NCBI GenBank assembly: GCA_937139405.1
Contig: CAKZPV010000048.1
Span: forward strand, 1-64,000
Reading direction: 5' to 3'
DNA length: 64,000 bases
From: an uncultured Nitrospirota bacterium
Lineage (GTDB): Bacteria > Nitrospirota > Nitrospiria > Nitrospirales > UBA8639
Shown: positions 1-22,788 of the stretch, one piece after another
Position numbering within the stretch: position 1 is the first letter of the stretch
Layout of the letters: each line of letters starts with the position of its first letter
The notes under the pieces: generated by a model
Seen by the model: the letters and a program-made list of their open reading frames with translations, nothing else
Database searches by the model: none
Told to the model about the DNA's origin: nothing
Made by a program: the position numbers and the translations under genes

Positions 1-239
1 AGAACTGTTCATAGAATAGTGTGGACGCGCCGCCCCAACCCCCGAGACCGACGTGGTTCATTCCCCCGTGGTTATAGGGATTTTTGAAAAGCTCTTGCGG
101 TGAGAATCACTACGCGTAATGGCACTTGAGCGAGTCCCATAGCCGTAATCGCGTGATGGCATGCCCCCTGCAATATTCCTCAAACATGCGAAACAAGAAT
201 AACCATCATGCACTCATTTTTTCCAAGGAGGAACATACG
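1..239. other. non-coding left edge
   Basis: I see no convincing gene here. An open frame runs upstream from 126, but the ribosome binding site (AAGGAGG, 223-231 region) decides the start of the secreted protein at 240, so this stretch is leader or promoter sequence. Confidence 0.5.
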
Positions 240-767
240 ATGAACAACCTAACCAGGACATTGATGATCATAGCAGTAGCAGGCGGCGTACTCTTTGGTG
301 GAACCATGGCCAGTCAGGCCGCTGACTCCTTTGCGACCACGAAAGAGAACGGTACGAGGCAAGTTGGGAACCAAGTGCCAAGCGACTTATATTGGGAACC
401 TGTAATAGGGCCTGATGAAGAAATTCCCATTCCAGGAGAAGATGACCCTAAGCCAGAAATCGATTATTGCCAAGCTACTGGAAAAATTACTGGGACTATC
501 TTACGGAAGAACGGTCAAACTTACTTACGCATGGATCACAATACCGATGGTCAATATAAAGTGTTTCAGGTTTTAGGAGGCACAACAGACTTTTTCCATC
601 CATTACAATCGGCCATCATCACAGAAGCCTGGTTGCGCAACCTAACAGTAAGGGTATGGGCGATAGGCCCGGCGGCAGGCGGCCAATGTGCGCCGCCAAA
701 CGGTAATGGTCGAATCGCTGGTGGAGTCGTTCAATTAATAGAAGTGTTACAAGCACCAACCGAGTAG
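240..767 (+). CDS. small secreted protein of unknown function
   Basis: 175 residues. The open frame extends upstream to 126, but an AAGGAGG sequence sits about 9 bases before the ATG at 240, and translation from there gives a clean Sec signal peptide: MNNLTR, a hydrophobic stretch, then a probable cleavage after ASQA (about residue 27). The mature part is acidic and proline-rich near residues 50-75 (DEEIPIPGEDDP) and has only two cysteines, which could form a disulfide in the periplasm. I do not recognise a family. It is a lone gene; downstream lie a hairpin (819-843) and a dispersed repeat. Secretion is well supported; function is unknown. Confidence 0.75.
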   Translation: MNNLTRTLMIIAVAGGVLFGGTMASQAADSFATTKENGTRQVGNQVPSDLYWEPVIGPDEEIPIPGEDDPKPEIDYCQATGKITGTILRKNGQTYLRMDHNTDGQYKVFQVLGGTTDFFHPLQSAIITEAWLRNLTVRVWAIGPAAGGQCAPPNGNGRIAGGVVQLIEVLQAPTE

Positions 768-818
768 TCTGTGGGATTTTCGCTATCATTCTGCTACATG
801 GTTCATACTTATTCCAAA

Positions 819-843
819 GGGAAGGGCTGGAAAATCCCTTCCC
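819..843. terminator. hairpin after the secreted-protein gene
   Basis: A perfect 8-bp stem, GGGAAGGG with CCCTTCCC, and a 9-base loop lies 51 bases past the stop codon at 767. There is no T-tract after it, so it is at best a weak or Rho-assisted terminator or an mRNA 3'-end stabiliser. Confidence 0.4.
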
Positions 844-1058
844 TTCCAGCATCAGGGAATCACGAGAGCTATTCCTCTGACAATCCACCTGAGTCTTTTC
901 TGGCTGACACATGATTATCGCCTACCAAAACGCCAAACATCTCTGATTAACCTACCCAACCTGAAATGCGCCGTGGAAGGACAAATGCCAGAAAGGCGAA
1001 CCATACAGAACATAGGGTTCCGCGTGTGTCTTGTTGACCTGCTTTTGCTTTTTGCCCT

Positions 1059-1250
1059 CCGACGCCTGCTGTTCGGTCCTTGAGTCGGCCGCTCTTTATC
1101 TTCGGCGGGCCTTGTTTGAGCGCAGTGAGTTGGGCCGCTCTTCTTCTGCGCGACCGTCCCATCCACCATGGCCGAACTGGGCGTCAATGGTTTTGGCTAC
1201 TTTTGCCAAAACAAAAGTGGCTCGGCTGCCGGGGCGAAACCCGGCAACAC
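1059..1250. repeat. dispersed hairpin repeat, copy 1
   Basis: This is about 190 bases sharing ordered conserved blocks with 3369-3562: CCGACGCCTGCTGT, GGGCCTTGTTTGAGCG, GGGCGTCAATGGTTTTGG and CGGGGCGAAACCCGGCAACAC. It carries two adjacent hairpins: 1195-1205 with 1212-1222 (11 pairs), and 1227-1233 with 1240-1246 (7 pairs). It lies 3' of the cytidylyltransferase gene that ends at 1347. Several short open frames cross it in all directions and are not genes. It resembles hairpin repeats scattered in many bacterial genomes; I cannot name the family. Confidence 0.85.
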
Positions 1251-1346
1251 CAAAAAACAATTAAATACTAGTTAGAGGCATCACTACCACCACGTAAAAT
1301 GGCAAGGGAGCTTTGAAAGGTCTGAATTAAAAGTTAAATCCGCGAA

Positions 1347-2300
1347 TTACCGGAAGGCCCCTTGCCGATAAAGCCGCCAAAACGTCGTAATACCCGCCCA
1401 AATCGGATGTCGCCGTTGAGCCGGAGTCAATTCAACTTTGACCCCTGAATGTCGTTCAATTTTCCAAATGAGATAATCCGCACCACCTTGAAATGTATAG
1501 GCCGCTTTCATTAGTCGCAAAATCGACAAAAGCTTCCCCTGCACCTTTCGAACGATCCAAGCCATTCGATTCTTAATCTTTTTCCATCCCGAAGATTCTA
1601 ATTCATAGTGAGTATTATCGTTCCGTTTAACGACCTTCACATTAGAAAAATGCGCCGACAAAGCTGCATCAGCGACTTGCTCATAATAGAATTGATTACT
1701 TTCCCATAATGTGCTGATTCGCCCCTTTGATTCAGCACGTAACTCCGCACCATAGCTAAGTGCCAAACCTGTAGCCCATACATCTTTGGCTGTAAATTGG
1801 GCTGGCATCTGCGGAAGGACATTCCCCAAAAACGTTAGTACCGCGCTTCCCAATCCTGAAATAATTCGTTGACTCATCGCTTCGCTTGTACATGCCATCA
1901 CAGCCGTGGGTTGCGCAAAGCGTCCCCAAAAATAGGAATGAAACCATAGTGGCCTCACACTTCGTTCAAAATCTTCTAATGACAAAACTGCATACTTCAT
2001 CCGAACTGTGTGGCCCTCCACATCTACCTCTCCATAAAACACATTTGGCGGAAGCCACGCATTAAGTCGCGCTAGCCAAGCTGATGAATAGACAGCCGCG
2101 TACTCATCCACAATGACATAACAGTCCACCAGTCCATTTTGATCCGTGCCAGCTCGCAGGCAAGAGCCATAGAGTAAAATTCCTTGAACGGCCTGCTCGT
2201 ATTTTTGAGCCAGAAAATTTCCAGCGGCTTGAATAGAAGGAGGAATCGGTTGCGCACTCGGCTGGCCAACAATCTCTAAGATGGTTGTAGAAAGAGCCAT
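1347..2300 (-). CDS. Tam41/Mmp37-family cytidylyltransferase (CDP-diacylglycerol synthase-like)
   Basis: 317 residues. Members of this family make CDP-diacylglycerol from phosphatidate and CTP; the best-known member is the mitochondrial enzyme Tam41, unrelated to bacterial CdsA. The nucleotidyltransferase signature is seen as LLYGS (residues 42-46) followed by VDCYVIVD with acidic residues 59 and 65. From memory of the family, further blocks match in order: VRMKYAVLSLEDF, WGRFAQP, a helix with SAVLTFL, and LALSYGAELR. It starts 2 bases after the stop of the lipid kinase gene, so the two are translationally coupled; that enzyme could supply its phospholipid substrate. Because ceramide genes lie nearby, the substrate could also be ceramide phosphate, which is inference. 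Family assignment is fairly sure; substrate is not. Confidence 0.75.
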   Translation of the reverse strand: MALSTTILEIVGQPSAQPIPPSIQAAGNFLAQKYEQAVQGILLYGSCLRAGTDQNGLVDCYVIVDEYAAVYSSAWLARLNAWLPPNVFYGEVDVEGHTVRMKYAVLSLEDFERSVRPLWFHSYFWGRFAQPTAVMACTSEAMSQRIISGLGSAVLTFLGNVLPQMPAQFTAKDVWATGLALSYGAELRAESKGRISTLWESNQFYYEQVADAALSAHFSNVKVVKRNDNTHYELESSGWKKIKNRMAWIVRKVQGKLLSILRLMKAAYTFQGGADYLIWKIERHSGVKVELTPAQRRHPIWAGITTFWRLYRQGAFR

Positions 2301-2302
2301 GA

Positions 2303-3268
2303 CTACTCGGATTTCAAGCGCACAAATGAAAGCTCGCCTGGAGAATCAAGGATGAGCGGCTCCTCAGGCTTGGAAGAAGTATACACCTCGCCATCCAACA
2401 CAAACCCACTGTTAAAACTCAAATGAATCTCTGAAAGGTTTTCACTCCAGTACCCATGATTAAGGGTCGCAAGATGATGAGGTTTTCCACGAAGCAATGT
2501 CGGCAAGACTCGCCATAAATGGTGATAGGGCACACGGAGGCTGGTAAATCGCAAGGGGCCAGAATTGTTGCCCCAAAAAGGTTTCATCCCTAAAAACAAT
2601 CGATTCAACGTGGTCACCAAGAGCACCAAATACTCATCCTGTAAAGGAGGCGTTTCTCCAACCGCAACGTCAGCAGTAATGGGATTCAATCCCTTTCGGG
2701 AACCAGTGGCTAAAGCCACTAAAAACTTCACCATAATTAGGCCTGCGCCCCATTCCCCTAACCGCCCAATCGATTGCTTCGTTTGAAGGCCCATTTGTGT
2801 CCCATGGTAAATGGCCCCTGCCCCGAAAAACATGCCATGTAAAGGTTCTCGTTCTTCAGGGAACCGAATTCTCAGAATTGGTCGGCTTTCGGTAAATGTT
2901 GTGGGATGGGAGGACTGCGCTTCGACGAGAAGTTGTTCCAAGGTCTTAGGCTCAAATTTCCCCAACCCCACATCACCTGCCATCAAATTGGCCGTCCCTG
3001 CTGGCAACAGCGCCAAACTCGGCATAGAAGCAAAAGGTTGATGACGAAATAAGGCACCCATGGTGGCTTGAATCGTTCCATCACCTCCATTCACAACCAC
3101 ACAATCCACCTGGTCTTGGGCAAACGTTTTCAAGGCCTCTAAGATTTCGACAGGCGTCTTGACCTCTGCCCATGGCAGGTCATGATTTTTTGAACGTACG
3201 TCCTGAAAAAAATCTGGATTCCGCCTATTTCGACCACTTAGCGGATTATGGAGGATCCCCACTCGCAT
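2303..3268 (-). CDS. diacylglycerol/sphingosine-kinase-family lipid kinase
   Basis: 321 residues, the usual size of bacterial YegS/DgkB-type kinases, which phosphorylate the hydroxyl of a lipid at the inner membrane. The N-terminus has the nucleotide-fold start VGILHNPLSG (3-12), and the catalytic ATP-binding motif NGGDGT lies at 60-65. LLPAGTANLMA at about residue 90 and a C-terminal beta domain (VLDGEVY) complete the family pattern. It is the first gene of a leftward pair with the Tam41-like enzyme (2-base gap). The substrate could be diacylglycerol, ceramide or a sphingoid base; the neighbouring ceramide genes make the latter two worth testing. It has no transmembrane segment and is likely a peripheral membrane protein. 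Confidence 0.85.
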   Translation of the reverse strand: MRVGILHNPLSGRNRRNPDFFQDVRSKNHDLPWAEVKTPVEILEALKTFAQDQVDCVVVNGGDGTIQATMGALFRHQPFASMPSLALLPAGTANLMAGDVGLGKFEPKTLEQLLVEAQSSHPTTFTESRPILRIRFPEEREPLHGMFFGAGAIYHGTQMGLQTKQSIGRLGEWGAGLIMVKFLVALATGSRKGLNPITADVAVGETPPLQDEYLVLLVTTLNRLFLGMKPFWGNNSGPLRFTSLRVPYHHLWRVLPTLLRGKPHHLATLNHGYWSENLSEIHLSFNSGFVLDGEVYTSSKPEEPLILDSPGELSFVRLKSE

Positions 3269-3568
3269 CGCGCAACCTAGTTCATGAAATTGAAAGTAAA
3301 AGAGTCATAGCACAAGTCTCGTCTATCACTTCTTCATCAAAGTCACTCCAAGACTTGAACCCCAAGATCCGACGCCTGCTGTCTGGTTCCTGGGATGGAC
3401 GCTCTTATGAGCTGACGGGCCTTGTTTGAGCGAAGCGAGTTGGTCCGCTTTCTTCAGACTGGCGGCCATCTTCTTAAATCAGAGTAGACAGGGCGTCAAT
3501 GGTTTTGGGCCCTTTTGCCGAAACAAAAGGGCCTCGCCTGCCGGGGCGAAACCCGGCAACACTGAATA
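3269..3568. other. 300-base intergenic stretch with repeat copy 2
   Basis: It separates the 5' end of the leftward lipid kinase gene from the 3' end of the leftward CDP-alcohol transferase gene. Bases 3369-3562 are the dispersed repeat. The remaining roughly 100 bases must contain the promoter of the kinase pair, but I cannot point to -10/-35 elements. Confidence 0.6.
3369..3562. repeat. dispersed hairpin repeat, copy 2
   Basis: Second copy of the element at 1059-1250, in the same orientation. Hairpins: 3507-3517 with 3524-3534 (10 Watson-Crick pairs plus a terminal G-T), and 3539-3545 with 3552-3558. Compared with copy 1, two stem positions differ by paired changes (A-T to C-G and C-G to G-C) and one by T-G to C-G, so the pairing is kept while the sequence changes. 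It begins 7 bases beyond the stop of the CDP-alcohol transferase gene, again at the 3' end of a leftward gene. Confidence 0.85.
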
Positions 3569-4777
3569 TCATTTAATAATGGCAGGAGGATTGGTGAACA
3601 CTCGGACAGCTAAAGAATCTCGACCATTCACAGGATCTATTTCGGCGAGCCAAGAAGTCAGGGATCCTTTCATGCTCTTCTCAAGCATCGCCATGGCTAA
3701 TCTCCCTAAAAGAATGACGGTCGAGAGCACGGTCCAGATTGCCACGGCCTCCAACCCGAGATCTGGTCGTCCAATCAGGATACTGCCCGTTAAAAAAATC
3801 ATATTGGGATTTCGTCGTGCGGTAATGAGTCGAAAAAATGAATCAAACGGCTTCCAACAAAAAATGACAAACCCTCCTAACCACCATTGAAAGATTCCTT
3901 CCACAATTCGCCCAAAAATATATCCAAGCACAATCACTAAACACGTGATCTCAAGGGTCATATTAGCAAACAAAGGAGCATACGAGACGAGTCCGATACC
4001 CCAGGCCAAATACCAAAGTGGCGGATGAATTAAATCAATGCCATGGTCGAAAATATTGCCCAATTTCGTTGACGTGACCGTGACTCTCGCTAATTTTCCA
4101 TCAACCGTATCCAGAAAAGTCATCACCCACCCACAGGCAAGGCCAAGGGCAAAATACCCATAGCTGAATAACATCCCTGCTAGAATCACCAGGCCTAAAC
4201 TCAGAGAGGTCACCTGGTTTGGTGAAATCCCCGCCATTGCACACAATCGAGTGGCCCACTGAGCTGGAACTGGCCACCAGAACTTTGTCACGAAATCCGT
4301 GACACTTTTATAGGATCCAGAAAATAAATGCTGTTCCAAACGCTGTCGGTTGTCCTCGCGAATAGGGAAAACATAAGGATGGTCGGTTTTTCGCAATTCG
4401 TTTGAAAAGGACCCCGAAAGATCTTTCAAGTTAACTCTTCTTACGTTTGGGATTTCGGCAAACTGTTCAGCTTGCATGGCTTCCGAAACAGAAAGCGCTT
4501 CCGATGCCGAGACATGAGCCACAACAGACACAGCACGTCCGCCCGACTCCATTTCAAGCAACACGTTCTTTTCGTTCGACAAACTGCGAAACACGCGTTC
4601 ATCATAAATAAAGTCTCCACGAATGATGAAAACGGAACTCTCGAGAGGAAGGTTCCTTAGATCAGACAGAAACTGATAGCTCCCAATTCGATCCAGCATT
4701 CGCCCCAATCGTTCGCGAGAAGTCAAATTCCACAAACGAATATCCGACTCATGACAGATGTACCAATATATGCTCAT
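3569..4777 (-). CDS. CDP-alcohol phosphatidyltransferase with degenerate N-terminal nucleotidyltransferase-like domain
   Basis: 402 residues. The C-terminal half carries the full family signature D-x2-D-G-x2-A-R-x8-G-x3-D-x3-D (D223, D226, G227, A230, R231, G240, D244, D248), followed by several transmembrane helices. Such enzymes displace CMP from a CDP-alcohol or CDP-lipid to form a phosphodiester. The first 165 residues resemble the later half of a MobA-type nucleotidyltransferase (LTSRERLGRML, then a VFIIRGDFIYDERVF strand) but lack the nucleotide-binding LAxGxGxR loop. That recalls the fused inositol-phosphate cytidylyltransferase/lipid synthases, with activity perhaps supplied by the separate genes at 7134 and 7947. 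The substrate is unknown; ceramide or diacylglycerol phospholipids are both possible. Confidence 0.85.
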   Translation of the reverse strand: MSIYWYICHESDIRLWNLTSRERLGRMLDRIGSYQFLSDLRNLPLESSVFIIRGDFIYDERVFRSLSNEKNVLLEMESGGRAVSVVAHVSASEALSVSEAMQAEQFAEIPNVRRVNLKDLSGSFSNELRKTDHPYVFPIREDNRQRLEQHLFSGSYKSVTDFVTKFWWPVPAQWATRLCAMAGISPNQVTSLSLGLVILAGMLFSYGYFALGLACGWVMTFLDTVDGKLARVTVTSTKLGNIFDHGIDLIHPPLWYLAWGIGLVSYAPLFANMTLEITCLVIVLGYIFGRIVEGIFQWWLGGFVIFCWKPFDSFFRLITARRNPNMIFLTGSILIGRPDLGLEAVAIWTVLSTVILLGRLAMAMLEKSMKGSLTSWLAEIDPVNGRDSLAVRVFTNPPAIIK

Positions 4778-4830
4778 ACCACCACTTGCCGTCCTTGAAG
4801 ACTATCCATGACAATCACGACTTCCCTCCG

Positions 4831-5907
4831 TTACGAAAAGTACACCCACCAAAGGATGCCAGTGGCCAACACGATCCCGAGAAATGGAATGGCGGTTGTC
4901 AATAATGCAGAAGCACCCAAGAGTATTCCTACATTTTCCAATATTTCTGTTGTCAGATAATATCCAATCCCGACTAACCCCCCGAGCATGATCCGTTTGC
5001 CGGCTGTCGCACTACGCAATGGCCCAAATGCAAATGGCAACGCGACTAAGATCATGAATCCTGTTTTCAAGGGCATAAAAATTTTGTCCCAGAAGGCTAA
5101 TTCATACCTCTGAACATTCTGTTTTTTGCGTTCAAGAATTCCAATATAGCGGAAAAGGTCAGACGGCGCGAGAGAAGATGGCGGCAATGTTAACAGCCGC
5201 ATCTCTTCTCGATTAAATGGAGAATCCCAAACAAGGCTCGACAATGTTTGTTCTGAAACACGAGGGCCCTGAATCACTTTTTTCTGAATGTTTTTTAAAA
5301 TCCACTTTTGAGGATTCTGAACATCCGCTTCTTCTGCATAAAGATAGACCACCATGGCTCCATCACGATTGAATTCGTAAATATCAATATCGTGCGGAAT
5401 TTCACCATACTCTAATGTCTTGATCCGAATATAGCGATTGTCTTCCCGAAACCATAGGCCTTCTTTTCCCTGATAGACTTGTGAGTTAGATAGCGCTAAT
5501 GAACGTGAAATATGTGCGTACTGATCCAACGTTGGCGTGACATATTCTTCTAAGCACGCAACAATCACAACAAAAACCACCCCCACCTGCAAAACAGCCC
5601 ACCCTATTTGGTAATGAGAGAATCCACCAGCCTGCATCGCCAAAAGCTCTCGCCCATTGGCTAGCCCACCCAAAGCCATAATACTTCCTAACAGGGCAAT
5701 GAATGGTGAGAGCACCACAAAACGCTGAGGTAATGTGAGAAGAACGAATTCCCCTGCGGCCCAAAAGGTGTAACGACCATTTCCGACTTCATCAACTTCT
5801 TCAACAAAGACAAATAAGCTAAACACCGCCAGCAGAATGGCTATCACAGGTAAATAACCCCTGATGACACTTCCCCAGAGGTATCGATAAAGAATGGGTA
5901 TAGACAT
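4831..5907 (-). CDS. lptG: LPS export permease LptG
   Basis: 358 residues, YjgP/YjgQ family. With LptF and the LptB ATPase this protein extracts LPS from the inner membrane and passes it to the periplasmic bridge. Visible are three N-terminal transmembrane segments (VIAILLAVFSLFVF near 18-31, then LSPFIALLGSIMAL), the family motif GRELLAMQAGGFS around residues 84-96, a large periplasmic beta-rich part (about 120-260) and three C-terminal helices. It lies downstream of lptF (107-base gap) on the same strand. I assign G rather than F by order and sequence type; the two paralogues are easily swapped. Confidence 0.85.
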   Translation of the reverse strand: MSIPILYRYLWGSVIRGYLPVIAILLAVFSLFVFVEEVDEVGNGRYTFWAAGEFVLLTLPQRFVVLSPFIALLGSIMALGGLANGRELLAMQAGGFSHYQIGWAVLQVGVVFVVIVACLEEYVTPTLDQYAHISRSLALSNSQVYQGKEGLWFREDNRYIRIKTLEYGEIPHDIDIYEFNRDGAMVVYLYAEEADVQNPQKWILKNIQKKVIQGPRVSEQTLSSLVWDSPFNREEMRLLTLPPSSLAPSDLFRYIGILERKKQNVQRYELAFWDKIFMPLKTGFMILVALPFAFGPLRSATAGKRIMLGGLVGIGYYLTTEILENVGILLGASALLTTAIPFLGIVLATGILWWVYFS

Positions 5908-6014
5908 GATGAGGCGATCAGGCGTATTCGTGTTTCAAGAAATCGCGATCGTGGTGACCAGCCAAAACGCGCTCACTCCTCTTAAATGTTTTTTGTGGAT
6001 CCAACCCGTCATGC

Positions 6015-7076
6015 TCATAAGAGTTGGCGTGTTGAAAATTTAGAGATGAAGACAAACACACTCACAAGTAGCCCTAAGCCAATTACGACCCACCATAGAC
6101 CGGGATAAATGGAAAGTGTTCCTTGCTCGACCAAATTTTTGACCATCAACCCTAAAAAATAGTACACAGCAAAGAGGACCGTTGCGGTAAATATTTTGGC
6201 ATATTTCCCTCCCCTTGGAGAGGAGCGACTCAACGGAATGCCTAACAACCCCAATAGAATGGTCGAAAAGGGCGTTGAAAACCGCCATTGAAGTTCGGCA
6301 ATATACTGCTTAGTCTCAAATGAGGCTAATTCGAGGGTAGGAACGGCCTTCCGTTTGTAATCTTGAATCGCTTCTTCAGGAAAAATGAACAATTTTTCAA
6401 AATGTGACATATGCGTAATACTGCCATTTCGAGTCAATTTGTACTCAAACCCATCAAAAAGTACAGGAATAGCGATCCCACTTTTGGGATGAAATTGTTC
6501 TCCGGCTTTTTGAGCCGAAATGATTCGTAGCTTATCTCCATGTTCGCTTTGTACAAAGACTCGTTTCAATTCTCGGTGTTGTTGATTCACCTCTTCCGCA
6601 AAAAGAACAAGTGAACCACCCCGTCGATCATAAAAATGCCCCGGCTCTAAATGACTGATGCCCAATCCAGCCTCTGCTTGCGCTTTGACGCGATAGCTTT
6701 CTTGATAGGCCAATGGGCGAAGATACAATGAAAACACAGCCACAAGAATTGCCACACATACTGAAAGAAGAAAAATCGATCCCATCACACGATAGGGGCT
6801 CACACCAGAGGCCAACAACGCTTTCATCTCTGAATCAGCATACAATCGGCCTAAGCCAAGAATAATTCCAAAGTACAGTGAGACAGGGAGTAACACCTCA
6901 AGCGCAATGGCAACCTTTAAGACAATTAATTTTAAGAGCATGCTAGTAGAAAGTAGAGCATCCACCGCTTGGGCTAAAAAAACGATCCAACTGTATCCTG
7001 CAAAGAGGACGATAAAAAGTACGCAGACCAGAATCGAAGGTTTGAGTACTTCTCGAATGAGATATCGATCTAACAT
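6015..7076 (-). CDS. lptF: LPS export permease LptF
   Basis: 353 residues, YjgP/YjgQ family, partner of LptG in the LptB2FG exporter. It starts MLDRYLIREVLKP, the typical N-terminus of LptF, followed by long hydrophobic segments, then the cytoplasmic coupling-helix motif YADSEMKALLASGVS near residues 79-93. The middle is a periplasmic domain with strands, and three helices close the protein (TVLFAVYYFLGLMV, LWWVVIGLGLLVSVFVF). A GAGAAGAG-like purine tract precedes the start. It is transcribed divergently from the nucleotidyltransferase gene at 7134 across only 57 bases, so the two promoters must overlap. Its position inside a sphingolipid gene set is noteworthy. Confidence 0.87.
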   Translation of the reverse strand: MLDRYLIREVLKPSILVCVLFIVLFAGYSWIVFLAQAVDALLSTSMLLKLIVLKVAIALEVLLPVSLYFGIILGLGRLYADSEMKALLASGVSPYRVMGSIFLLSVCVAILVAVFSLYLRPLAYQESYRVKAQAEAGLGISHLEPGHFYDRRGGSLVLFAEEVNQQHRELKRVFVQSEHGDKLRIISAQKAGEQFHPKSGIAIPVLFDGFEYKLTRNGSITHMSHFEKLFIFPEEAIQDYKRKAVPTLELASFETKQYIAELQWRFSTPFSTILLGLLGIPLSRSSPRGGKYAKIFTATVLFAVYYFLGLMVKNLVEQGTLSIYPGLWWVVIGLGLLVSVFVFISKFSTRQLL

Positions 7077-7133
7077 CCAGCTCTTCTCTACAATACCTTT
7101 ACATTTGCCATACCCGATGGTACTAATCGTTTC

Positions 7134-7862
7134 ATGAAAGCCATCATTCTCAGCGCTGGCCAGGGAAAGCGTTTACTGCCATTAACGAAAGACCAGCCTA
7201 AATGCACCATTCCTATTCATGGGCGATCCATCCTCGAATGGCAAATCCATGAATTAATCAAGTTCGGCATAAGCCCCATTCATGTGGTCGTAGGGTTTGG
7301 GGCGACCATCGTCGAGCAAGTCTTAGCCAAGCAGAGTAACGGTCACGCCATCCATACGTTATACAACCCCTTTTATGCACTCGCAGATAATCTTATCAGT
7401 TGCTGGACCGCTAGAAATGAAATGACAGAAGACTTTATCTTATTAAATGGCGATACCCTATTTGAGACGGCTGTTATTGAACGTTTGTTACAGGCTCCGC
7501 CAGCACCCATTACCTTAGTAACCGATGAAAAACCGCAGTATGATGCTGACGATATGAAAGTGATTGTACAAGGCACCCAGCTCATCCGTATTGGAAAAAC
7601 CTTAGAGACGGTCAAGGTCAACGGTGAATCCATAGGCATGATTCGGTTTCAACACGAGGGGCCGGAACTATTTTCGTCGACAATCGAACACCGTATTCGA
7701 CAACCAGAATCGCTCAAGCAATGGTATCTCTCTCTCATCGATGAGCTCGCCGCACAAGGTCATGTCTCCACGGTCTCAATTAAAGGATTGATATGGGCAG
7801 AGATTGACAACCCAGAAGATTTACTACAGGCGGAAACCCTGCTCAAACCCTTTGTGCCCTAA
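7134..7862 (+). CDS. sugar/alcohol-phosphate nucleotidyltransferase (phosphocholine- or inositol-phosphate-cytidylyltransferase-like)
   Basis: 242 residues, a single-domain nucleotidyltransferase of the GT-A fold. The nucleotide loop is LSAGQGKRLLPLT (6-18) with the conserved lysine in DQPKC, and the metal-binding strand is ILLNGDTLFE near residue 105. A final aspartate appears in WAEIDNPEDL. Small enzymes of this type activate phosphocholine, inositol 1-phosphate or sugar phosphates to CDP or UDP derivatives. The neighbouring CDP-alcohol phosphatidyltransferase would use such a CDP-alcohol, so a head-group-activating role is a reasonable inference. It is the only rightward gene in a block of leftward ones. 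The exact substrate cannot be read from sequence. Confidence 0.75.
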   Translation: MKAIILSAGQGKRLLPLTKDQPKCTIPIHGRSILEWQIHELIKFGISPIHVVVGFGATIVEQVLAKQSNGHAIHTLYNPFYALADNLISCWTARNEMTEDFILLNGDTLFETAVIERLLQAPPAPITLVTDEKPQYDADDMKVIVQGTQLIRIGKTLETVKVNGESIGMIRFQHEGPELFSSTIEHRIRQPESLKQWYLSLIDELAAQGHVSTVSIKGLIWAEIDNPEDLLQAETLLKPFVP

Positions 7863-7946
7863 CTAGATTCACGACCATCTGCAAGAGCATTACTTCATTC
7901 TTGCTATTTCAACCACCGTTTTCATTCCGCGCAATCTCAAGTTTTC

Positions 7947-8753
7947 TTAACCTCTGCCTCGTTGCTTGAGAATTTGTTCCGCTAACGCCAAGTCTTCTGG
8001 AGTATCAACATCAATCGCTGCTTCTGGGAAGGGTAGAATAATTTCTTTGATGGAAATCTCCATACGTTGACTGAGTTCTTTGAGCGCGTCAGACAGCGAC
8101 AACAAACCAAAAATATAGCGAAGAAGCATGATCCAACCTAGCCGACGAATCAAGCGAAACGGTTGTTTGCGTTCGCGCTCAACCTGCGACCAGAAATCTA
8201 CCAATCTCGACGCTCGCGGGGTACCAAGAAAGAACAAATTACACCCACAATATCCTCCGCCTTGAAACCGGATAACCGTACGCTTTGATTGAGGATATGC
8301 CTCTGCCACAACTGAATATGGCACCAGAGCAACGGCCACATCCGCTTGCGTCTGCCCAGCCTCTCGAAGAAAATATTCCACCATTTCAACGGTCAATAAA
8401 GCATGATCGGCTGTGGTTACGAGCAAAGGAAAATCTTGATGTGGTTGGTCTAAAAAACTCTTGACACTCAAGCTAGGGCCTTGTTGAGGAGCCACCCACT
8501 GAATGGTTTTCGTATTGACGAGATCACGTAATACGTTCTGCTCCTGCACCACTTCCCAAGAAGGCCCACACAACACCCGTCGCTCAACCAGGCTAGACGC
8601 TTCAAGAACCATCAAAACCCTAGACACCATCGGCATTCCACCCACTAAAGCCAGCACTTTCAGGGGCACTCCAGCAACTTCGGCCACTGGGTCCAACCCA
8701 GCGCGAGCACCAGCTAAGACTAACGCGGTCACTGGAGAGGGCTCAGACTTCAT
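7947..8753 (-). CDS. MobA-like nucleotidyltransferase
   Basis: 268 residues. The N-terminus has a divergent nucleotide-binding loop, ALVLAGARAGLDPVA, where the usual GGxSxRMG is reduced, followed by VPLKVLALVGGMPMV, which fits the product/base-binding strand of MobA-type enzymes. TTADHALL (about 113-120) is the likely metal-binding aspartate, and IDVDTPEDLALAE near the C-terminus is the closing motif of the family. It lies 30 bases downstream of the GNAT-like gene and is probably cotranscribed. Molybdenum-cofactor synthesis is unlikely because no other Mo genes are present. A role in nucleotide activation of a lipid head group is an inference from position. Confidence 0.7.
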   Translation of the reverse strand: MKSEPSPVTALVLAGARAGLDPVAEVAGVPLKVLALVGGMPMVSRVLMVLEASSLVERRVLCGPSWEVVQEQNVLRDLVNTKTIQWVAPQQGPSLSVKSFLDQPHQDFPLLVTTADHALLTVEMVEYFLREAGQTQADVAVALVPYSVVAEAYPQSKRTVIRFQGGGYCGCNLFFLGTPRASRLVDFWSQVERERKQPFRLIRRLGWIMLLRYIFGLLSLSDALKELSQRMEISIKEIILPFPEAAIDVDTPEDLALAEQILKQRGRG

Positions 8754-8783
8754 CGCGCCCGTCTCAATTCAATCCTGGATAAG

Positions 8784-9908
8784 TCAATTGAGTGCTTTCT
8801 CATAAACACGATAGGTTTTATAAGATTCCGCTCCTAGTGATTCAAGAATATGGCTCATACGTTTGTTATCTTCCAGAATCCAAGACAACTCGACGTGTTC
8901 AATTTTTTTTCGCAACCCCGCCTGCCTGACCGCCTCAATCATGCCATACGCCATAAGCGCACCCATCGGGCTGGCTTGAAACCGCGGCCTCACCCCCATG
9001 AGTGCAACCCGCCCAGTTTTTGGATATCCGACCTTCAGCCGCCAGAGAATCTTGAACCACCCCCAGGGCCATAGACGCCCATCAAGATCATGAATCACTT
9101 CATGCAAATTTGGAAACGCCACCAGCATGGCACTTGGGATCCCATCGATTTCCGCTATTTGCACAAAATCATCTTCAACTAACAATTTCATCTGCTGACC
9201 CAATTCAGCAAATTCTGCTTTGGTAAATGGCACAAATCCCCAATTCTCAGCCCAGGCCTCTTCAAAAATTTCCTTAATAATCGACAACTCTTCCTGTAAG
9301 TGGCCTCGACGTAGCGGGCGAATTCTGACTGAATCTTTGGCCTTGTTTAAAAACCTGGCTACGCCCGATGGAAGGGGAAAATCAATCCCTATGCGATAAG
9401 CCAGCATATCCTGGACCTTTTGATAACCCATGGCTTCAACGTGTTTTGGATAATAGGGTCTTGCATGGCCCATCATCACCATGGGAGGATCGTCATACCC
9501 CTTGATTAATAACCCACATTCCTGGTTTATGGACAAATTGAACGGCCCTTGAACGGCTGTCATGCCTTCAGCTTGCAACCATCCTTCTGCTGCTTCAAAA
9601 AGAGCCTGAAAGACTTCCACAGAATCTTCAGCTTCCAATGACCCAAAAAACCCAATTCGGGAGTCGTATCGCGCAAGATGCAATTCATCAATTTGAGCAC
9701 TAATTCGTCCAACCAGCATCTTCCCTCGATACGCCAACCAACATTGCCAACGCGCATGATCAAAATACGGATTTTTCTTAGAATAAAAATGAAGCCGTTC
9801 TACCGTAATCGGTGGAACCCAGGCAGGATCTGCCTTGTACAGTCCGGAAGGAAATTGAACAAACTGCTTGAGACCAACGCGATCATGAACAGGTTCAATC
9901 CGAATCAA
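8784..9908 (-). CDS. GNAT-like N-acyltransferase, candidate bacterial ceramide synthase
   Basis: 374 residues. It belongs to a family usually annotated as a GNAT acetyltransferase, with N-terminal IEPVHDRVGLKQFVQFP and a PAWVPP segment, GRISAQID (about residue 67) and a central block with NQECGLLI and YPKHVEAMGY. A second acyltransferase half follows (SAMLVAFPNL, GVRPRFQASPMGALM). As I recall, the ceramide synthase of Caulobacter (bCerS), which N-acylates sphinganine, is a protein of this kind encoded near serine palmitoyltransferase. Here it sits beside a fatty-acid hydroxylase and close to a complete SPT operon, so I propose N-acylation of a sphingoid base. The alternative is a GNAT enzyme acting on another amine. 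It is likely cytoplasmic or peripheral. Confidence 0.7.
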   Translation of the reverse strand: MIRIEPVHDRVGLKQFVQFPSGLYKADPAWVPPITVERLHFYSKKNPYFDHARWQCWLAYRGKMLVGRISAQIDELHLARYDSRIGFFGSLEAEDSVEVFQALFEAAEGWLQAEGMTAVQGPFNLSINQECGLLIKGYDDPPMVMMGHARPYYPKHVEAMGYQKVQDMLAYRIGIDFPLPSGVARFLNKAKDSVRIRPLRRGHLQEELSIIKEIFEEAWAENWGFVPFTKAEFAELGQQMKLLVEDDFVQIAEIDGIPSAMLVAFPNLHEVIHDLDGRLWPWGWFKILWRLKVGYPKTGRVALMGVRPRFQASPMGALMAYGMIEAVRQAGLRKKIEHVELSWILEDNKRMSHILESLGAESYKTYRVYEKALN

Positions 9909-10009
9909 AATGTCCGGCCTCGAATAGTCCCTGCTGGTCTTGAATAAGAAAAGTCTCTGGTAGATGAGAAAAAGGGAAGAGAACGTTGGTCATGCACAAC
10001 CATCCACAT

Positions 10010-10744
10010 TTAATGCTTCTGTTCTGATAATTGTGCAACCCAAGGATAGAGCAATCGTTCTTCATCTTGATATCCCAAATTTGAGACCGTCTGACTGACG
10101 GGGATCTTCTCAGGATTGGAATAATTACTACCAAATACGTGATCACAGAGAAGACTGGTAATGCCAAAATTGCCCTGTTCATTATGAAAATGATGCATCA
10201 AGTGATGGCGTTTTATTCGCCGTAAAAATTTGCTTTTCGGGTTCACACGAAGATGTTGCATGCAATGGCACAGTTCATACACCATAAAACACGCTAAGCC
10301 TGTGGCAAAAGATAGCGGCACACACGCCCAACCCCCTATGCTCAGGCCAATAGGAAACGTTGTCACAACAATAGTGGGCAGCGTGGTTGAAACTGATCCA
10401 AACAGAACACGCAAGTCATTAGGGTCTTGATGATGATCGTAATGTATTCGCTTCCACAAAGCTGCCGTCCAGGGTGACCGGTACAAATATCGTCCATGTA
10501 AGATAAACCGATGTACACCATATTCAACAAATGGATAGGCCAATAATGTCACAATAATACTTCCCAATAAACGAAATTCAGATACGGGGGTATAAGGATA
10601 AATCACAAAGGCCACAATAATACTGCCAACTAACAAGACAAAATACATCTGGATACTTGGATATGAGATGTATGCCCCAAGCAGATCACGCACCGTCATC
10701 CGATCAAGATGATATTTTTCACGATACCATTGGCTGGTCAACAT
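10010..10744 (-). CDS. fatty acid hydroxylase / sterol-desaturase superfamily membrane enzyme
   Basis: 244 residues. This is a di-iron membrane hydroxylase. The histidine clusters are plain: HRFILH (78-83), HYDHH (101-105), HCMQH (160-164) and HHLMHHFH (180-187). Hydrophobic segments lie at about 33-50, 59-74 and 120-155. In eukaryotes relatives hydroxylate the acyl chain of ceramide or C4 of sphinganine. Here the gene is 101 bases upstream of the candidate ceramide synthase on the same strand, which supports a role in hydroxylating a ceramide chain, though other lipids are possible. It faces the HIT gene across a 334-base divergent intergenic region. Confidence 0.82.
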   Translation of the reverse strand: MLTSQWYREKYHLDRMTVRDLLGAYISYPSIQMYFVLLVGSIIVAFVIYPYTPVSEFRLLGSIIVTLLAYPFVEYGVHRFILHGRYLYRSPWTAALWKRIHYDHHQDPNDLRVLFGSVSTTLPTIVVTTFPIGLSIGGWACVPLSFATGLACFMVYELCHCMQHLRVNPKSKFLRRIKRHHLMHHFHNEQGNFGITSLLCDHVFGSNYSNPEKIPVSQTVSNLGYQDEERLLYPWVAQLSEQKH

Positions 10745-11078
10745 TCTCGGACTACCGTCCCTTTCTCAATTTGCAATCTCGGATTCTACAAAGATTACGT
10801 CAATCGAATGTTTGATGGTGAGAAAGACCAATTATAGAAACCTTGTGAAGATGCCACAAGAACAGCGTGTGAGTTGCTTCGACTTCTAATGACACCACTA
10901 TAACCAAATTTGCTCGATGAACTAACCTTACCAAATGATCACGTTGGGACAAGATTCTGGCGTAAACCTCACTGTACAATCTGCACTTACCGTTGAATGG
11001 ATCTCACCTGCATAAAATTCAATGTGTCAGTCATTTTCATAGACACCATATTGATGGTTTCGGTATAAAACCATTTCG
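10745..11078. other. divergent intergenic region
   Basis: 334 bases between the leftward hydroxylase gene and the rightward HIT gene, so it should contain two outward promoters. I see no hairpin, riboswitch or clear sigma-70 hexamer pair that I would defend. Confidence 0.5.
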
Positions 11079-11507
11079 ATGAATGTGACAATGAAAAAAT
11101 TTGGGTTTCCTGAAACCTGCGTCAAAGAATTTCACCACTGGGTTGTCTTGTTGCGCCCACAACAGGTGACGCTTGGTTCACTGATCTTAATTTGTCGAGA
11201 AGACTCCACGGCCTTTTCACAAATCAGTTTGGAAGCGTTTGAGGAATTCCCTGAAATTATTCAAGAGATGGAAGCAAACCTCTCCCATGCCTTTAGCTAT
11301 AACAAGATTAATTACCTCATGTTGATGATGGTCGACCCAGAGGTGCATTTTCATGTTATACCTCGATACGACGCCCCTCGAACATTTTTTCAGCAGCAAT
11401 TTTGTGACCAGGGTTGGCCTGGCCCCCCTGATCTAAAAAATCCTCATGAAATATCCAAAGATGTCCGAAATCAAATCTTAATACATCTCAAAAGTATTTG
11501 GTGCTAA
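11079..11507 (+). CDS. HIT-family hydrolase/transferase
   Basis: 142 residues. HIT proteins hydrolyse or transfer nucleotidyl groups on phosphate and phosphoramidate bonds. The family motif HxHxHxx is present as EVHFHVIPR (residues 88-96): the second and third histidines are kept but the first is glutamate. The N-terminal FHHWVVLLRPQQVTLGSLIL strand also fits the family. The middle histidine is the nucleophile, so activity may be retained. A second ATG lies four codons in. The gene precedes the sphingolipid operon by about 200 bases; whether it serves in lipid nucleotide chemistry (for example CDP-lipid hydrolysis) is only a guess. Confidence 0.75.
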   Translation: MNVTMKKFGFPETCVKEFHHWVVLLRPQQVTLGSLILICREDSTAFSQISLEAFEEFPEIIQEMEANLSHAFSYNKINYLMLMMVDPEVHFHVIPRYDAPRTFFQQQFCDQGWPGPPDLKNPHEISKDVRNQILIHLKSIWC

Positions 11508-11622
11508 AAAAACTATTTGTGAAAAAAATCGGCTATCTACACTTCATTCTCTGTTGCCAAATAGACTCATTTTGTGTTTTTTTTGAGACACGTCTTTAGG
11601 CCCATAACTACAAATTATGATT

Positions 11623-11640
11623 TATAAACAACAGTTTATA
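11623..11640. promoter_or_regulatory. operator-like palindrome before the sphingolipid operon
   Basis: TATAAAC-AACA-GTTTATA is a perfect 7-bp inverted repeat with a 4-base spacer, in an AT-rich leader about 70 bases before the ligase gene. The symmetry and position fit a dimeric repressor site, but no regulator gene lies nearby and the AT content makes chance plausible. Confidence 0.35.
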
Positions 11641-11709
11641 GATGTTAATTTTAAGATAAATTTGGCACAGACATTGCTGTATTACCTTTGACTCTTAATG
11701 TCCTAATGA

Positions 11710-13512
11710 TTGATGAATTACATGAATCTTGAAAAAAGCAAAAATATTCATATGATTGCCACTCCAACTCACACTGCCATCGCTCTTCGTCCAGGAAATT
11801 TTTCGACCCTTTCCGAAGCATTGAACTACGCTGCCACTGGAAAAACGGGAAGTAATTTTTATTCTGGCCGTGGTCAATTAACACAGGCCCTTCCGTATGT
11901 TGACTTGCAAGCACAGTCAATCAACCTAGCAAAACGGCTTAATGGGTTAGGCTTACCCCGTGGATCTCGAGTGGCGTTAGTTGCTGATACAACACCAGAT
12001 TTTCTTCGATTCTTTTTTGCTTGTCAGTACGCTGGCCTTATCCCTGTGCCCCTTCCGATTTCTATCCATTTAGGTGGGCACCAAGCATATGTGAGCCAAC
12101 TGAGCCGTCTACTTGAAAGTTGCAAAGCTTCCATCGCAATGGCCCCTGAAGGATTTGTTCCATTCTTAGAAGAAGCTGCCAGTGGACTGAATCTTTCAAT
12201 GCTTGGGGGACCTGAGGCCTTTGCTGCACTGAAAGAAAGCCCGGCTCCGCTTGTGCCTCTTGCCCCTCATGAACTTGCGTATATCCAATACACTTCTGGC
12301 AGCACTCGATGGCCAAGAGGGGTTGAGGTGACCCAAGCTGCTGTGATGACTAATTTAGCTGGAATCATTCAGCATGGCTTACAAGTGCAACCTGGAGACC
12401 GCTGTGTCTCTTGGCTGCCTTTCTATCATGACATGGGCTTGGTTGGATTTGTCCTAGGTCCTATCGCTTCGCAGCTTTCAGTTGATTATCTCAGCACGAG
12501 AGATTTTGCCATGCGCCCTCGCCAATGGCTCAATCTCATGACCAAGAGTCAAGCGACAATTTCCTTTAGCCCATCGTTTGGCTATGAACTGTGCGTTCGA
12601 CGTTTACGAGAAGATTCCTCAAAAGAATCTTACGATCTCAGTGCATGGCGAATCGCAGGGGTCGGTGCTGAAACTATTCGAGCTGACAGTCTAGGACGAT
12701 TTGCTAAAGCGTTAGAACCTTCAGGTTTTAAATCAAACGCGTTTTTGGCATGCTATGGCATGGCTGAATGCTCATTAGCCATTAGCTTTGCCTCTCTGGA
12801 TCTCGGAATTCAAGTTGATCACGTTGACGCTGATGATTTATCAAATAACCGAAAAGCCTGTCTGGTCAATACCAATCCTTCTGAAGGGAATCAAACCCGC
12901 ATTAGCAAATTTGTCAACTGCGGAGTGCCTCTGCCGGGGTATGAAGTAGAAATACGGGACAACAAAGGAACAGTTCTTGATGACCGTGAAAGTGGGACGA
13001 TCTTTGTCCGTGGTGCTAGTACCATGACAGGATATTTTGATGATCCTGGATTAACTCAAGATGTCCTTTCTGAAGATGGATGGCTTGATACCGGGGATAT
13101 TGGATATTGGGTACAAGGCAGTCTCGTCATTATTGGGCGGTCAAAGGATATGATCATTATTAATGGTCGAAATATTTGGCCTCAGGACTTAGAATATGTT
13201 GCCGAGCAACAACCAGAAGTTCGCCCTGGTGATTCCTCAGCATTTTCAGTATCTGGTCCTGAAGGGGAAGAAGTAGCCATTATGGTCGTCCAATGTCGTG
13301 AAGGTAACTCTCAAAAACGAGACAACTTGATCGATCGTTTAGGCTCAAGGATTCAAAAAGAACTTTCCATACCCTGCTATATTGAGCTTATTGCTCCAAG
13401 GACCCTCCCAAGAACTTCTTCAGGAAAATTATCACGATCTCGCGCTAAAGCAGACTTTCTCAAGCGCGTCAAATGGGACGCGTTGGCGCCTACATTATCT
13501 CTTTCAGCGTAA
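11710..13512 (+). CDS. fatty-acyl-AMP ligase (acyl-ACP synthetase type)
   Basis: 600 residues. It adenylates a fatty acid and, in this subfamily, passes it to an acyl carrier protein rather than CoA. The adenylation core is seen as YIQYTSGSTRWPRGV (about 190-204), where the usual lysine before GV is arginine, then WLPFYHDMGL, ACYGMAE, WLDTGDIGYW and SKDMIIINGRNIWPQDLE. The last has the R-N-x-x-P-x-D-x-E pattern typical of fatty-acyl-AMP ligases. The C-terminal lysine motif is PRTSSGKLSR. The frame opens with TTG-ATG at 11710/11713 and has no strong ribosome binding site; an ATG at 11752 is an alternative. It is the first gene of an operon with an SDR, an ACP and an SPT-like enzyme, matching the ligase of the Caulobacter ceramide pathway. 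Confidence 0.85.
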   Translation: MMNYMNLEKSKNIHMIATPTHTAIALRPGNFSTLSEALNYAATGKTGSNFYSGRGQLTQALPYVDLQAQSINLAKRLNGLGLPRGSRVALVADTTPDFLRFFFACQYAGLIPVPLPISIHLGGHQAYVSQLSRLLESCKASIAMAPEGFVPFLEEAASGLNLSMLGGPEAFAALKESPAPLVPLAPHELAYIQYTSGSTRWPRGVEVTQAAVMTNLAGIIQHGLQVQPGDRCVSWLPFYHDMGLVGFVLGPIASQLSVDYLSTRDFAMRPRQWLNLMTKSQATISFSPSFGYELCVRRLREDSSKESYDLSAWRIAGVGAETIRADSLGRFAKALEPSGFKSNAFLACYGMAECSLAISFASLDLGIQVDHVDADDLSNNRKACLVNTNPSEGNQTRISKFVNCGVPLPGYEVEIRDNKGTVLDDRESGTIFVRGASTMTGYFDDPGLTQDVLSEDGWLDTGDIGYWVQGSLVIIGRSKDMIIINGRNIWPQDLEYVAEQQPEVRPGDSSAFSVSGPEGEEVAIMVVQCREGNSQKRDNLIDRLGSRIQKELSIPCYIELIAPRTLPRTSSGKLSRSRAKADFLKRVKWDALAPTLSLSA

Positions 13513-13568
13513 TTGGCCTGAGAAGGCCTCTCATCAATTACTGATTCTCACCTTCCTCGCCTCTGCTT

Positions 13569-14513
13569 ATGCCAAGTACGGTTGCCCTAACCGGGGCCTC
13601 AGGTTTTATTGGCCAAGCCATTGCCAATCAATTATCCCAGGCTGGCGTAAAAGTCAGAGGACTCGTCCGTACACATCCCAAAATTCCTGGACTCGAACAT
13701 CCAAATATTACGCTGATCAATGGGAGTCTCAACAATCTTGAAAGTTTGCACACACTGATTCAAGGTTGTGACAGCCTTATCAATTGCGCAGGTTCGATTC
13801 GTGGTCGTCGAAGAGAAGACTTTATTGCAACAAATGTACAGGGAGTCACAAATCTTCTGAAAGTATGCCTTTCTCAATCTTTTCCTCCTCAAATCATCCA
13901 GATCTCTTCACTGGCGGCCAGAGAGCCTTCTCTCTCTTCCTATGCATGGAGCAAACAAGAAGGAGAACGCATTATCCAAGAGCAAGCAGATTCCCTGAAA
14001 TGGGTCATTATTCGCCCACCCGCTGTTTATGGCCCAGGGGATAAGGCTCTCTTGCCTCTATTTCAATTAGCTAAAAAGGGAATCGCCCTACAACTAGGTC
14101 CTCATGAGGGTAAGTTTTCGCTTATCCATGTGAGTGACCTAACTGACGTTATTGTGCGCTGTCTTGAGGCAGACACCATTCGCTCAACAATCTTTGAAGT
14201 TGATGACGGTTTTCCAAATGGGTATTCGTGGGAATCAGTTTTTCACGTACTCAACCCCCACATAAAGGGCCATCTGAGGATTCCACCAAAGCTTCTATGG
14301 CTTGCTGGAAAAAGCAATGAAATATTGTCCCAGTTGTTTAGATATTCCCCACTTTTCACAACGGGTAAAGTAGCCGAACTCTGTCATACAAATTGGGTCT
14401 GTGACTCGCTAGAAGCCAGGAAGCAACTAGAGTGGGTTCCGCAAATTCCCTTAGCAGAAGGCTTGCGCCATCTCTTTGCATCAGATAATCTCATGATATC
14501 CAAGAAAAACTAG
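13569..14513 (+). CDS. NAD-dependent epimerase/dehydratase-family reductase, candidate 3-ketosphinganine reductase
   Basis: 314 residues, extended SDR fold. The Rossmann motif is GASGFIG (9-15), with the catalytic pair Y125 and K129 in YAWSK and a serine pair at about 113-114. RPPAVYGPGD marks the substrate side of the extended SDR family. Enzymes of this type reduce the 3-keto group of the SPT product in Caulobacter (CerR). The gene lies 56 bases after the ligase and 57 before the carrier protein, on one strand. The assignment rests on this context; sequence alone only shows an NAD(P)-dependent sugar-epimerase-like reductase. Confidence 0.8.
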   Translation: MPSTVALTGASGFIGQAIANQLSQAGVKVRGLVRTHPKIPGLEHPNITLINGSLNNLESLHTLIQGCDSLINCAGSIRGRRREDFIATNVQGVTNLLKVCLSQSFPPQIIQISSLAAREPSLSSYAWSKQEGERIIQEQADSLKWVIIRPPAVYGPGDKALLPLFQLAKKGIALQLGPHEGKFSLIHVSDLTDVIVRCLEADTIRSTIFEVDDGFPNGYSWESVFHVLNPHIKGHLRIPPKLLWLAGKSNEILSQLFRYSPLFTTGKVAELCHTNWVCDSLEARKQLEWVPQIPLAEGLRHLFASDNLMISKKN

Positions 14514-14570
14514 GTTCTCTACCCGATCACATTCCACTTAACAGCCTTTTTTATATAACATGAACCGATT

Positions 14571-14816
14571 ATGACGACGTATGCTGACATTCTGCCGAAA
14601 CTATTAGAAACACTCCAGCCCTATGCCAAAAAGATTGGGCATCTGAAAGAAACAACTGATTTAGTATCTGAACTCGGTCTCGATTCCCTTCAAGTCATGC
14701 AGGTGTTGCTCAAAATCGAAGACCAGTTTGATATCTCCATTCCTTTGAACAATTTGCCCAATATCCGCACTGTTAAAGATTTAGGACAAGAAATTGAGAT
14801 GTTGTTGAAAGCATAA
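14571..14816 (+). CDS. acyl carrier protein dedicated to the sphingolipid operon
   Basis: 81 residues. The phosphopantetheine attachment site is GLDSLQVM with serine 39, followed by the four-helix pattern of carrier proteins. It is separate from the housekeeping fatty-acid-synthesis genes, which are not in this window. Its stop codon is 3 bases before the SPT-like start, showing translational coupling. It should receive an acyl group from the ligase at 11710 and present it to the SPT-like enzyme, as the AcpR-type protein does in Caulobacter. Confidence 0.88.
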   Translation: MTTYADILPKLLETLQPYAKKIGHLKETTDLVSELGLDSLQVMQVLLKIEDQFDISIPLNNLPNIRTVKDLGQEIEMLLKA

Positions 14817-14819
14817 ATT

Positions 14820-16037: not shown

Positions 16038-16113
16038 CTATTGCATCGAACATGTTCGTGTGGTTTTCCTACTCTCGAATAGTTGAGTGTCTTCTTCAAG
16101 GAGCCATCTTTTT

Positions 16114-18549: not shown

Positions 18550-18599
18550 CCATGTCATGTTCCAAGTTCTCTTGGCCTGAATAAAGTAGCCCTTGACGA

Positions 18600-19991: not shown

Positions 19992-20073
19992 AGTTGACCC
20001 CCTCATCATCGGAAACCTTTCCTGAAAGGCTCAATTGTGGGCCCTGGGGTAAATCAGGGAGTCTCAGAATCCA

Positions 20074-22775: not shown

Positions 22776-22788
22776 CTGAATCGAAACC

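Follow-up and report, generated by a model that had tools for sequence, protein, structure and literature searches.

Two adjacent genes in a full sphingolipid cluster of a Nitrospirota genome, encoding a lipid kinase and a nucleotidyltransferase of the Tam41 fold, correspond by domain content and gene order to cpgB and cpgC (CC_1160 and CC_1161) of Caulobacter, and the second enzyme probably converts ceramide-1-phosphate and CTP to CDP-ceramide and pyrophosphate. This mechanism agrees best with the fold, the conserved active site, the Caulobacter genetics and the genomic linkage. The pair is a known one, now placed in Nitrospirota with structural and co-occurrence support, and the preliminary description of this DNA, which was made from the sequence alone, was correct in what it had observed. 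To our knowledge, no CDP-ceramide route has been established in any organism, and the term CDP-ceramide did not occur in the literature searched.

The genes lie in the window, a 64,000-nucleotide stretch of a 4.46-Mb genome whose closest relatives in a scan of genome contigs were Nitrospirales and UBA8639 assemblies. Both ORFs are intact and on the minus strand: 1347-2300 encodes a Tam41-like (CpgC-like) protein of 317 residues, 2303-3268 encodes a GGDGT lipid kinase (CpgB-like) of 321 residues, and two bases separate the kinase stop codon from the ATG of the Tam41-like ORF. The motifs described earlier are all present, namely, LLYGS and D59-x5-D65 in the Tam41-like protein and NGGDGT in the kinase (GGDGT from residue 61). 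The two acids of D-x5-D fared differently, as D59 was invariant (75/75 sequences) and D65 was found in only 62/75. The kinase matched DAGK_cat in Pfam (PF00781, 60.9 bits), and its translation lacks CxxxCxxC, the motif of eukaryotic ceramide kinases (PMC10331486). The pair and its neighbors are as follows.

1347-2300, minus strand: CpgC-like Tam41-fold nucleotidyltransferase, 317 residues (PF09139, 26.6 bits; Z of 19.2 to 7ecd; invariant active-site residues)
2303-3268, minus strand: CpgB-like lipid (ceramide) kinase, DAGK_cat with NGGDGT, 321 residues (PF00781, 60.9 bits)
3569-4777, minus strand: CpgA-like CDP-alcohol phosphotransferase with an N-terminal extension, 402 residues (PF01066, 34.5 bits)
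4831-5907, minus strand: LptF/LptG-family permease, cluster copy (PF03739, 215 bits)
6015-7076, minus strand: LptF/LptG-family permease, cluster copy (PF03739, 205 bits)
7134-7862, plus strand: CpgD-like cytidylyltransferase, candidate CDP-glycerate synthase (PF00483/PF12804)
7947-8753, minus strand: MobA/CofC-like nucleotidyltransferase, CC_1153-like (PF12804, 44 bits; adjoins CerS in many loci)
8784-9908, minus strand: CerS-like N-acyltransferase, CC_1154-like (conserved position, homologues in sphingolipid clusters; no Pfam match)
10010-10744, minus strand: fatty-acid hydroxylase/sterol desaturase family, candidate ceramide hydroxylase (PF04116, 74 bits)
11710-13512, plus strand: fatty acyl-AMP ligase, AasR-like (NF006624, 785 bits, above the cutoff)
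13569-14513, plus strand: NAD-dependent epimerase/dehydratase, CerR-like (PF01370; conserved in spt clusters)
14571-14813, plus strand: acyl carrier protein, AcpR-like (BLASTP, 39% to the ACP of a Pseudomonas plasmid cluster)
14820-16037, plus strand: serine palmitoyltransferase, Spt (NF047599, 625.7 bits against an NCBIfam cutoff of 500 bits)

The Spt score bears out the earlier claim that ceramide genes are close to the pair. These neighbors match the Caulobacter phosphosphingolipid cluster, CC_1168-CC_1152 (PMC11324152), in the CC_1159-1160-1161 order, the two LptF/LptG permeases and the two nucleotidyltransferases (CC_1152/CpgD-like and CC_1153-like); further counterparts are the CerS-like, AasR-like and CerR-like proteins, the ACP and the serine palmitoyltransferase. 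The order CpgA-CpgB-CpgC recurs in many loci. In the PDB, the CpgD-like protein best matched CTP:phosphocholine cytidylyltransferase and also matched 4jd0, a reported structural homologue of CpgD.

Next, the resemblance of the 317-residue protein to Tam41 was examined. Its match to the Tam41 family exceeds chance, as confirmed by PF09139 (Tam41_Mmp37; 26.6 bits, E value of 4.6e-6, Pfam cutoff of 24 bits), which was its sole Pfam match and was also found in 54/75 relatives at an E value of ≤0.01; CTP_transf_1 (PF01148), the CdsA family, was not matched. A search of the PDB with the single sequence gave no match, and a profile of the 75 relatives matched Schizosaccharomyces pombe Tam41 best (6ig2/6ig4; E value of about 8e-6), with K102 opposite the Lys of KYG and SYRAELR opposite SYLGDIR of 6ig2. 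An AlphaFold model built from 71 sequences (mean pLDDT of 85.4, pTM of 0.83) retrieved Tam41 structures as the top four Foldseek matches (first E value of 2.9e-11). In VIA-align, the model aligned with the CTP-Mg-bound Firmicutes Tam41 (7ecd) with a Z score of 19.2 (2.8 Å over 226 residues) and with S. pombe 6ig4 with a Z score of 17.8, compared to 9.3 for the best non-Tam41 fold, another nucleotidyltransferase. Thus, the model has the nucleotidyltransferase and winged-helix domains of Tam41, although identity in the structural alignments was only 13 to 18%. The protein also differs from Tam41 in its genomic partners, which are ceramide genes, and in a conserved basic C terminus (251-317): the last 80 residues contain 17 Lys/Arg and 3 Asp/Glu, and residues past 251 were modeled with lower confidence and are scarcely covered by the structural matches. 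The preliminary description had called Tam41 the mitochondrial CDP-diacylglycerol (CDP-DAG) synthase; the activity holds, but the family is not restricted to mitochondria, since the crystallized Firmicutes enzyme (7ecd) is an active CDP-DAG synthase.

Y44, G45, S46, D59, K102, R127, Y183, E186 and R188 were invariant in 75/75 sequences, and Y61 lies two residues past D59 in the Tam41-type active site. The SYxGDxR block of Tam41 reads SYxxExR here, Glu replacing Asp. From the alignments, the protein seems to keep a single classical acid, D59, together with the Lys of KYG. That only one such acid is clearly kept might indicate an inactive or regulatory homologue that merely supports the kinase. 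However, active Tam41 enzymes have been reported with just one of the three classical acids (PMC11646218), approximately 25 residues including the active-site set are invariant over the 75 sequences, and deletion of CC_1161 abolishes ceramide phosphoglycerate (CPG) in Caulobacter; an inactive homologue is therefore very improbable. Given the Tam41 fold, CpgC is far more likely to carry out a nucleotidyl transfer than any other reaction, and this is directly testable; the shared fold does not fix its lipid substrate.

The probable assignment to cpgC was made through Pseudomonas luteola, a species for which orthologues of the Caulobacter genes have been listed (PMC11324152): the window protein is 42% identical to the P. 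luteola cluster protein (L073), and the tie to CC_1161 runs through this protein and gene order. The two proteins occupy the same place in the same type of cluster (CDP-alcohol phosphotransferase, kinase, Tam41-like), the window homologue differing in that it is found in Nitrospirota. CC_1161 is required for CPG and carries a CDP-DAG-synthase domain by InterPro; an NDP-activated ceramide was proposed on its account in 2024 (PMC11324152). Thus, the central idea was already in print, and the interpretation given in the preliminary description is partly supported. The possibility that the gene pair was undescribed was rejected, as it matches cpgB-cpgC (PMC11324152, PMC10331486, PMC12275187, PMC13228409). 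The mechanism of CpgC was still called unidentified in a 2025 paper and a 2026 preprint (PMC12275187, PMC13228409), and published schemes draw CpgC as converting ceramide-1-phosphate to CPG. The kinase step is established in Caulobacter by others: purified CC_1160 (CpgB) is a ceramide kinase that also takes diacylglycerol in vitro with comparable activity, and cpgB deletion leaves phosphatidate unchanged (PMC10331486). The window kinase resembles CpgB in its DAGK_cat domain with GGDG, the absence of CxxxCxxC and its position directly upstream of the Tam41-like gene; ceramide is its predicted substrate.

To characterize the pair across genomes, we scanned genome contigs for the Tam41-like gene, which gave 80 loci. 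A same-strand kinase of the CpgB-like family lay directly upstream in 77/83 loci, the 83 being those with sufficient upstream sequence, including loci from other searches; because they were picked by similarity to the query, scan loci are not independent. Evenly drawn whole genomes (398 Pseudomonadota and 148 Nitrospirota) provided a cleaner test. In Pseudomonadota, 27 genomes had the Tam41-like gene, 36 had Spt above the cutoff and 26 had both, such that Spt was present in 26/27 carriers versus 10/371 noncarriers (Fisher P value of 2e-31, or 2e-30 once the seed genome was removed); these P values overstate independence, since related genomes share history. Spt lay within 15 kb of the Tam41-like gene in 16/27 of these carriers. 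In Nitrospirota, the gene was present in four genomes, with Spt above the cutoff in 3/4 carriers and 0/144 others. The Tam41-like gene is thus almost exclusive to Spt genomes, and the pair recurs near spt elsewhere. Both a missing Tam41 fold and a missing association with sphingolipid genes had been looked for; the fold and the association were found.

Spt was below the cutoff or absent in six carriers (G154, G157, G159, G162, G164 and G169). A pair that operates without sphingolipids, on another substrate, was considered for these and rejected: CerS homologues were present in G154, G157, G164 and G169, and another locus, L026, adjoins assembly gaps, so that missing contigs are likelier than Spt-free carriers. 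G159 and G162 are left unexplained. A 1.9-Mb Nitrospirota assembly (L004/G087) has a divergent Tam41-like gene (28 to 31% identity) with no adjacent kinase, located between a CDP-alcohol phosphotransferase gene and a metallophosphoesterase-like gene; at another place on that contig, a CerS-like gene and an Spt-like gene (below the cutoff) are separated by approximately 14 kb.

In a maximum likelihood tree of the 75 sequences, the window protein grouped with Nitrospirales, and other Nitrospirota carriers fell elsewhere, among delta-type lineages. The tree shows a patchy distribution but is no proof of transfer, because its backbone support is weak. Phosphosphingolipid clusters were also observed on IncP-type plasmids (pPNP1 of Pseudomonas and pDCB2 of Diaphorobacter), one of which is typed as conjugative; an integron carrying sul1, or genes for mercury resistance, lie close to the clusters. 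These plasmid-borne clusters represent horizontal spread of a lipid pathway.

The preliminary description had left the product as CDP-ceramide or CDP-DAG. CdsA (PF01148), which would run the analogous reaction on phosphatidate, is an unrelated integral membrane protein, and a canonical cdsA is encoded elsewhere in the genome of the window, between uppS and dxr. CdsA was also found in 17/17 other carriers examined (18/18 with the window genome); therefore, the Tam41-like enzyme is not a replacement CDP-DAG synthase, and that candidate was rejected. A second CDP-DAG synthase, in which the kinase would make phosphatidate from diacylglycerol and the Tam41-like enzyme would make CDP-DAG for a dedicated lipid, would be in keeping with a fold shared with CDP-DAG-making enzymes, the activity of bacterial Tam41 and the in vitro use of diacylglycerol by CpgB. 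This is nevertheless quite unlikely, given CdsA in all carriers tested, the almost exclusive co-occurrence with Spt, and the Caulobacter deletions, of which ΔcpgB left phosphatidate unchanged and that of CC_1161 abolished CPG. CDP-DAG is thus weakened as the product, and the predicted CDP-ceramide is the best reading.

The earlier proposal that the kinase makes a lipid phosphate, which the Tam41-like enzyme activates with CTP, gained support from the fold, the pairing and the linkage. In the pathway that we propose, AasR, AcpR, Spt, CerS and CerR would make ceramide, which CpgB would phosphorylate to ceramide-1-phosphate. The nucleotidyltransferase domain of CpgC would bind CTP-Mg, and the phosphate of ceramide-1-phosphate would attack the alpha-phosphate of CTP, yielding CDP-ceramide and pyrophosphate; we infer this use of CTP and ceramide-1-phosphate from the Tam41 fold and its active site, together with the genetics and the genomic linkage. 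By chemical reasoning, CDP-ceramide would then condense with glycerate or phosphoglycerate, through a further transferase, to give ceramide phosphoglycerate and CMP. CpgD, which makes CDP-glycerate (PMC12275187), and the CDP-alcohol phosphotransferase CpgA would supply and attach a second phosphoglycerate, after which the lipid would be exported by the additional LptF/LptG permeases. CPG has one bridging phosphate and requires both the kinase and CpgC, which fits CTP activation of the phosphate that the kinase adds.

The chief alternative is a different nucleotidyl step, in which CpgC would join glycerate to ceramide-1-phosphate by means of an NTP or NDP-glycerate and free CDP-ceramide would never accumulate. 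Caulobacter still makes CPG when it lacks CpgA, the one CDP-alcohol phosphotransferase that has been named in its cluster, and CpgC may therefore suffice; moreover, the published schemes take ceramide-1-phosphate to CPG by CpgC with the mechanism left unspecified, and a CofC-like nucleotidyltransferase is conserved nearby. Against this, characterized Tam41 enzymes move a cytidylyl group from CTP, and CPG forms without CpgD and also without CC_1153, such that no known NDP-glycerate is needed. We consider this alternative rather unlikely, and CDP-DAG synthesis less likely still.

Any CDP-ceramide produced by CpgC would have to be consumed by a further transferase, and the formation of CPG without CpgA implies that this consumer is missing among the named cluster enzymes. 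The CpgA/CpgD module was tallied from the genes of each fetched locus rather than genome-wide, for loci whose upstream sequence spanned 7.5 kb or more: CpgA-like and CpgD genes occurred together in 29 loci, a CpgA-like gene without CpgD in 2 and CpgD without a CpgA-like gene in 0, and 18 loci had neither. CpgA and CpgD thus travel together (CpgD in 29/31 loci with a CpgA-like gene), in agreement with published work that proposes CpgA as the user of the CDP-glycerate made by CpgD, and the CpgB-CpgC pair stands without either nearby. Many carriers have the pair in this form and, if they produce CDP-ceramide, may build different headgroups from it. The PF01066 enzymes recovered from nine genomes, an incomplete set, clustered into two large groups plus several small groups; none of the small groups was common to all, and this small sample revealed no extra PF01066 enzyme shared by carriers that lack CpgA. 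In another locus (L091, 3512-5793), two CDP-alcohol phosphotransferase genes flank the Tam41-like gene, a candidate site for a CDP-ceramide consumer.

Ceramide diphosphoglycerate helps Caulobacter live without LPS, and CpgC has been one undefined step on the path to it. The link described here extends the phosphosphingolipid pathway to Nitrospirota; new are the kinase upstream in 77/83 loci, the Spt co-occurrence counts, CdsA in 18/18 carriers and the pair without CpgA or CpgD nearby. Members of the Tam41 family may then have diverged in substrate, some taking glycerolipids and others sphingolipids. In eukaryotes, ceramide itself is the acceptor of sphingolipid headgroups. It is conceivable, if somewhat short of probable, that CDP-ceramide, made by a Tam41-fold enzyme encoded beside a ceramide kinase, is a general activated sphingolipid intermediate of diderms (at least Pseudomonadota, Nitrospirota and Desulfobacterota-type lineages) serving more than one headgroup transferase.

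Several further features of the region were noted. The hydroxylase/desaturase gene inside the cluster (10010-10744) may hydroxylate ceramide; in Caulobacter, the amide-linked chain is reportedly the target of a DesA-family enzyme. A HIT-like protein is encoded at 11079-11507, with homologues that recur in other clusters; some HIT enzymes act on CDP-lipids, and this one may act on a CDP-activated intermediate. Two direct copies of an intergenic repeat of approximately 205 bp (1058-1264 and 3368-3576; 79 to 91% alike in blocks) flank the kinase/Tam41 pair; an Rfam search of positions 1 to 20000 gave no match for it, and in the related loci L013, L020 and L021 its core again adjoins the same gene. 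Following the lipid cluster, ORFs resembling CMP-acylneuraminate synthetase and NeuB were recognized by eye at 21999-23706, which suggests a surface polysaccharide region.
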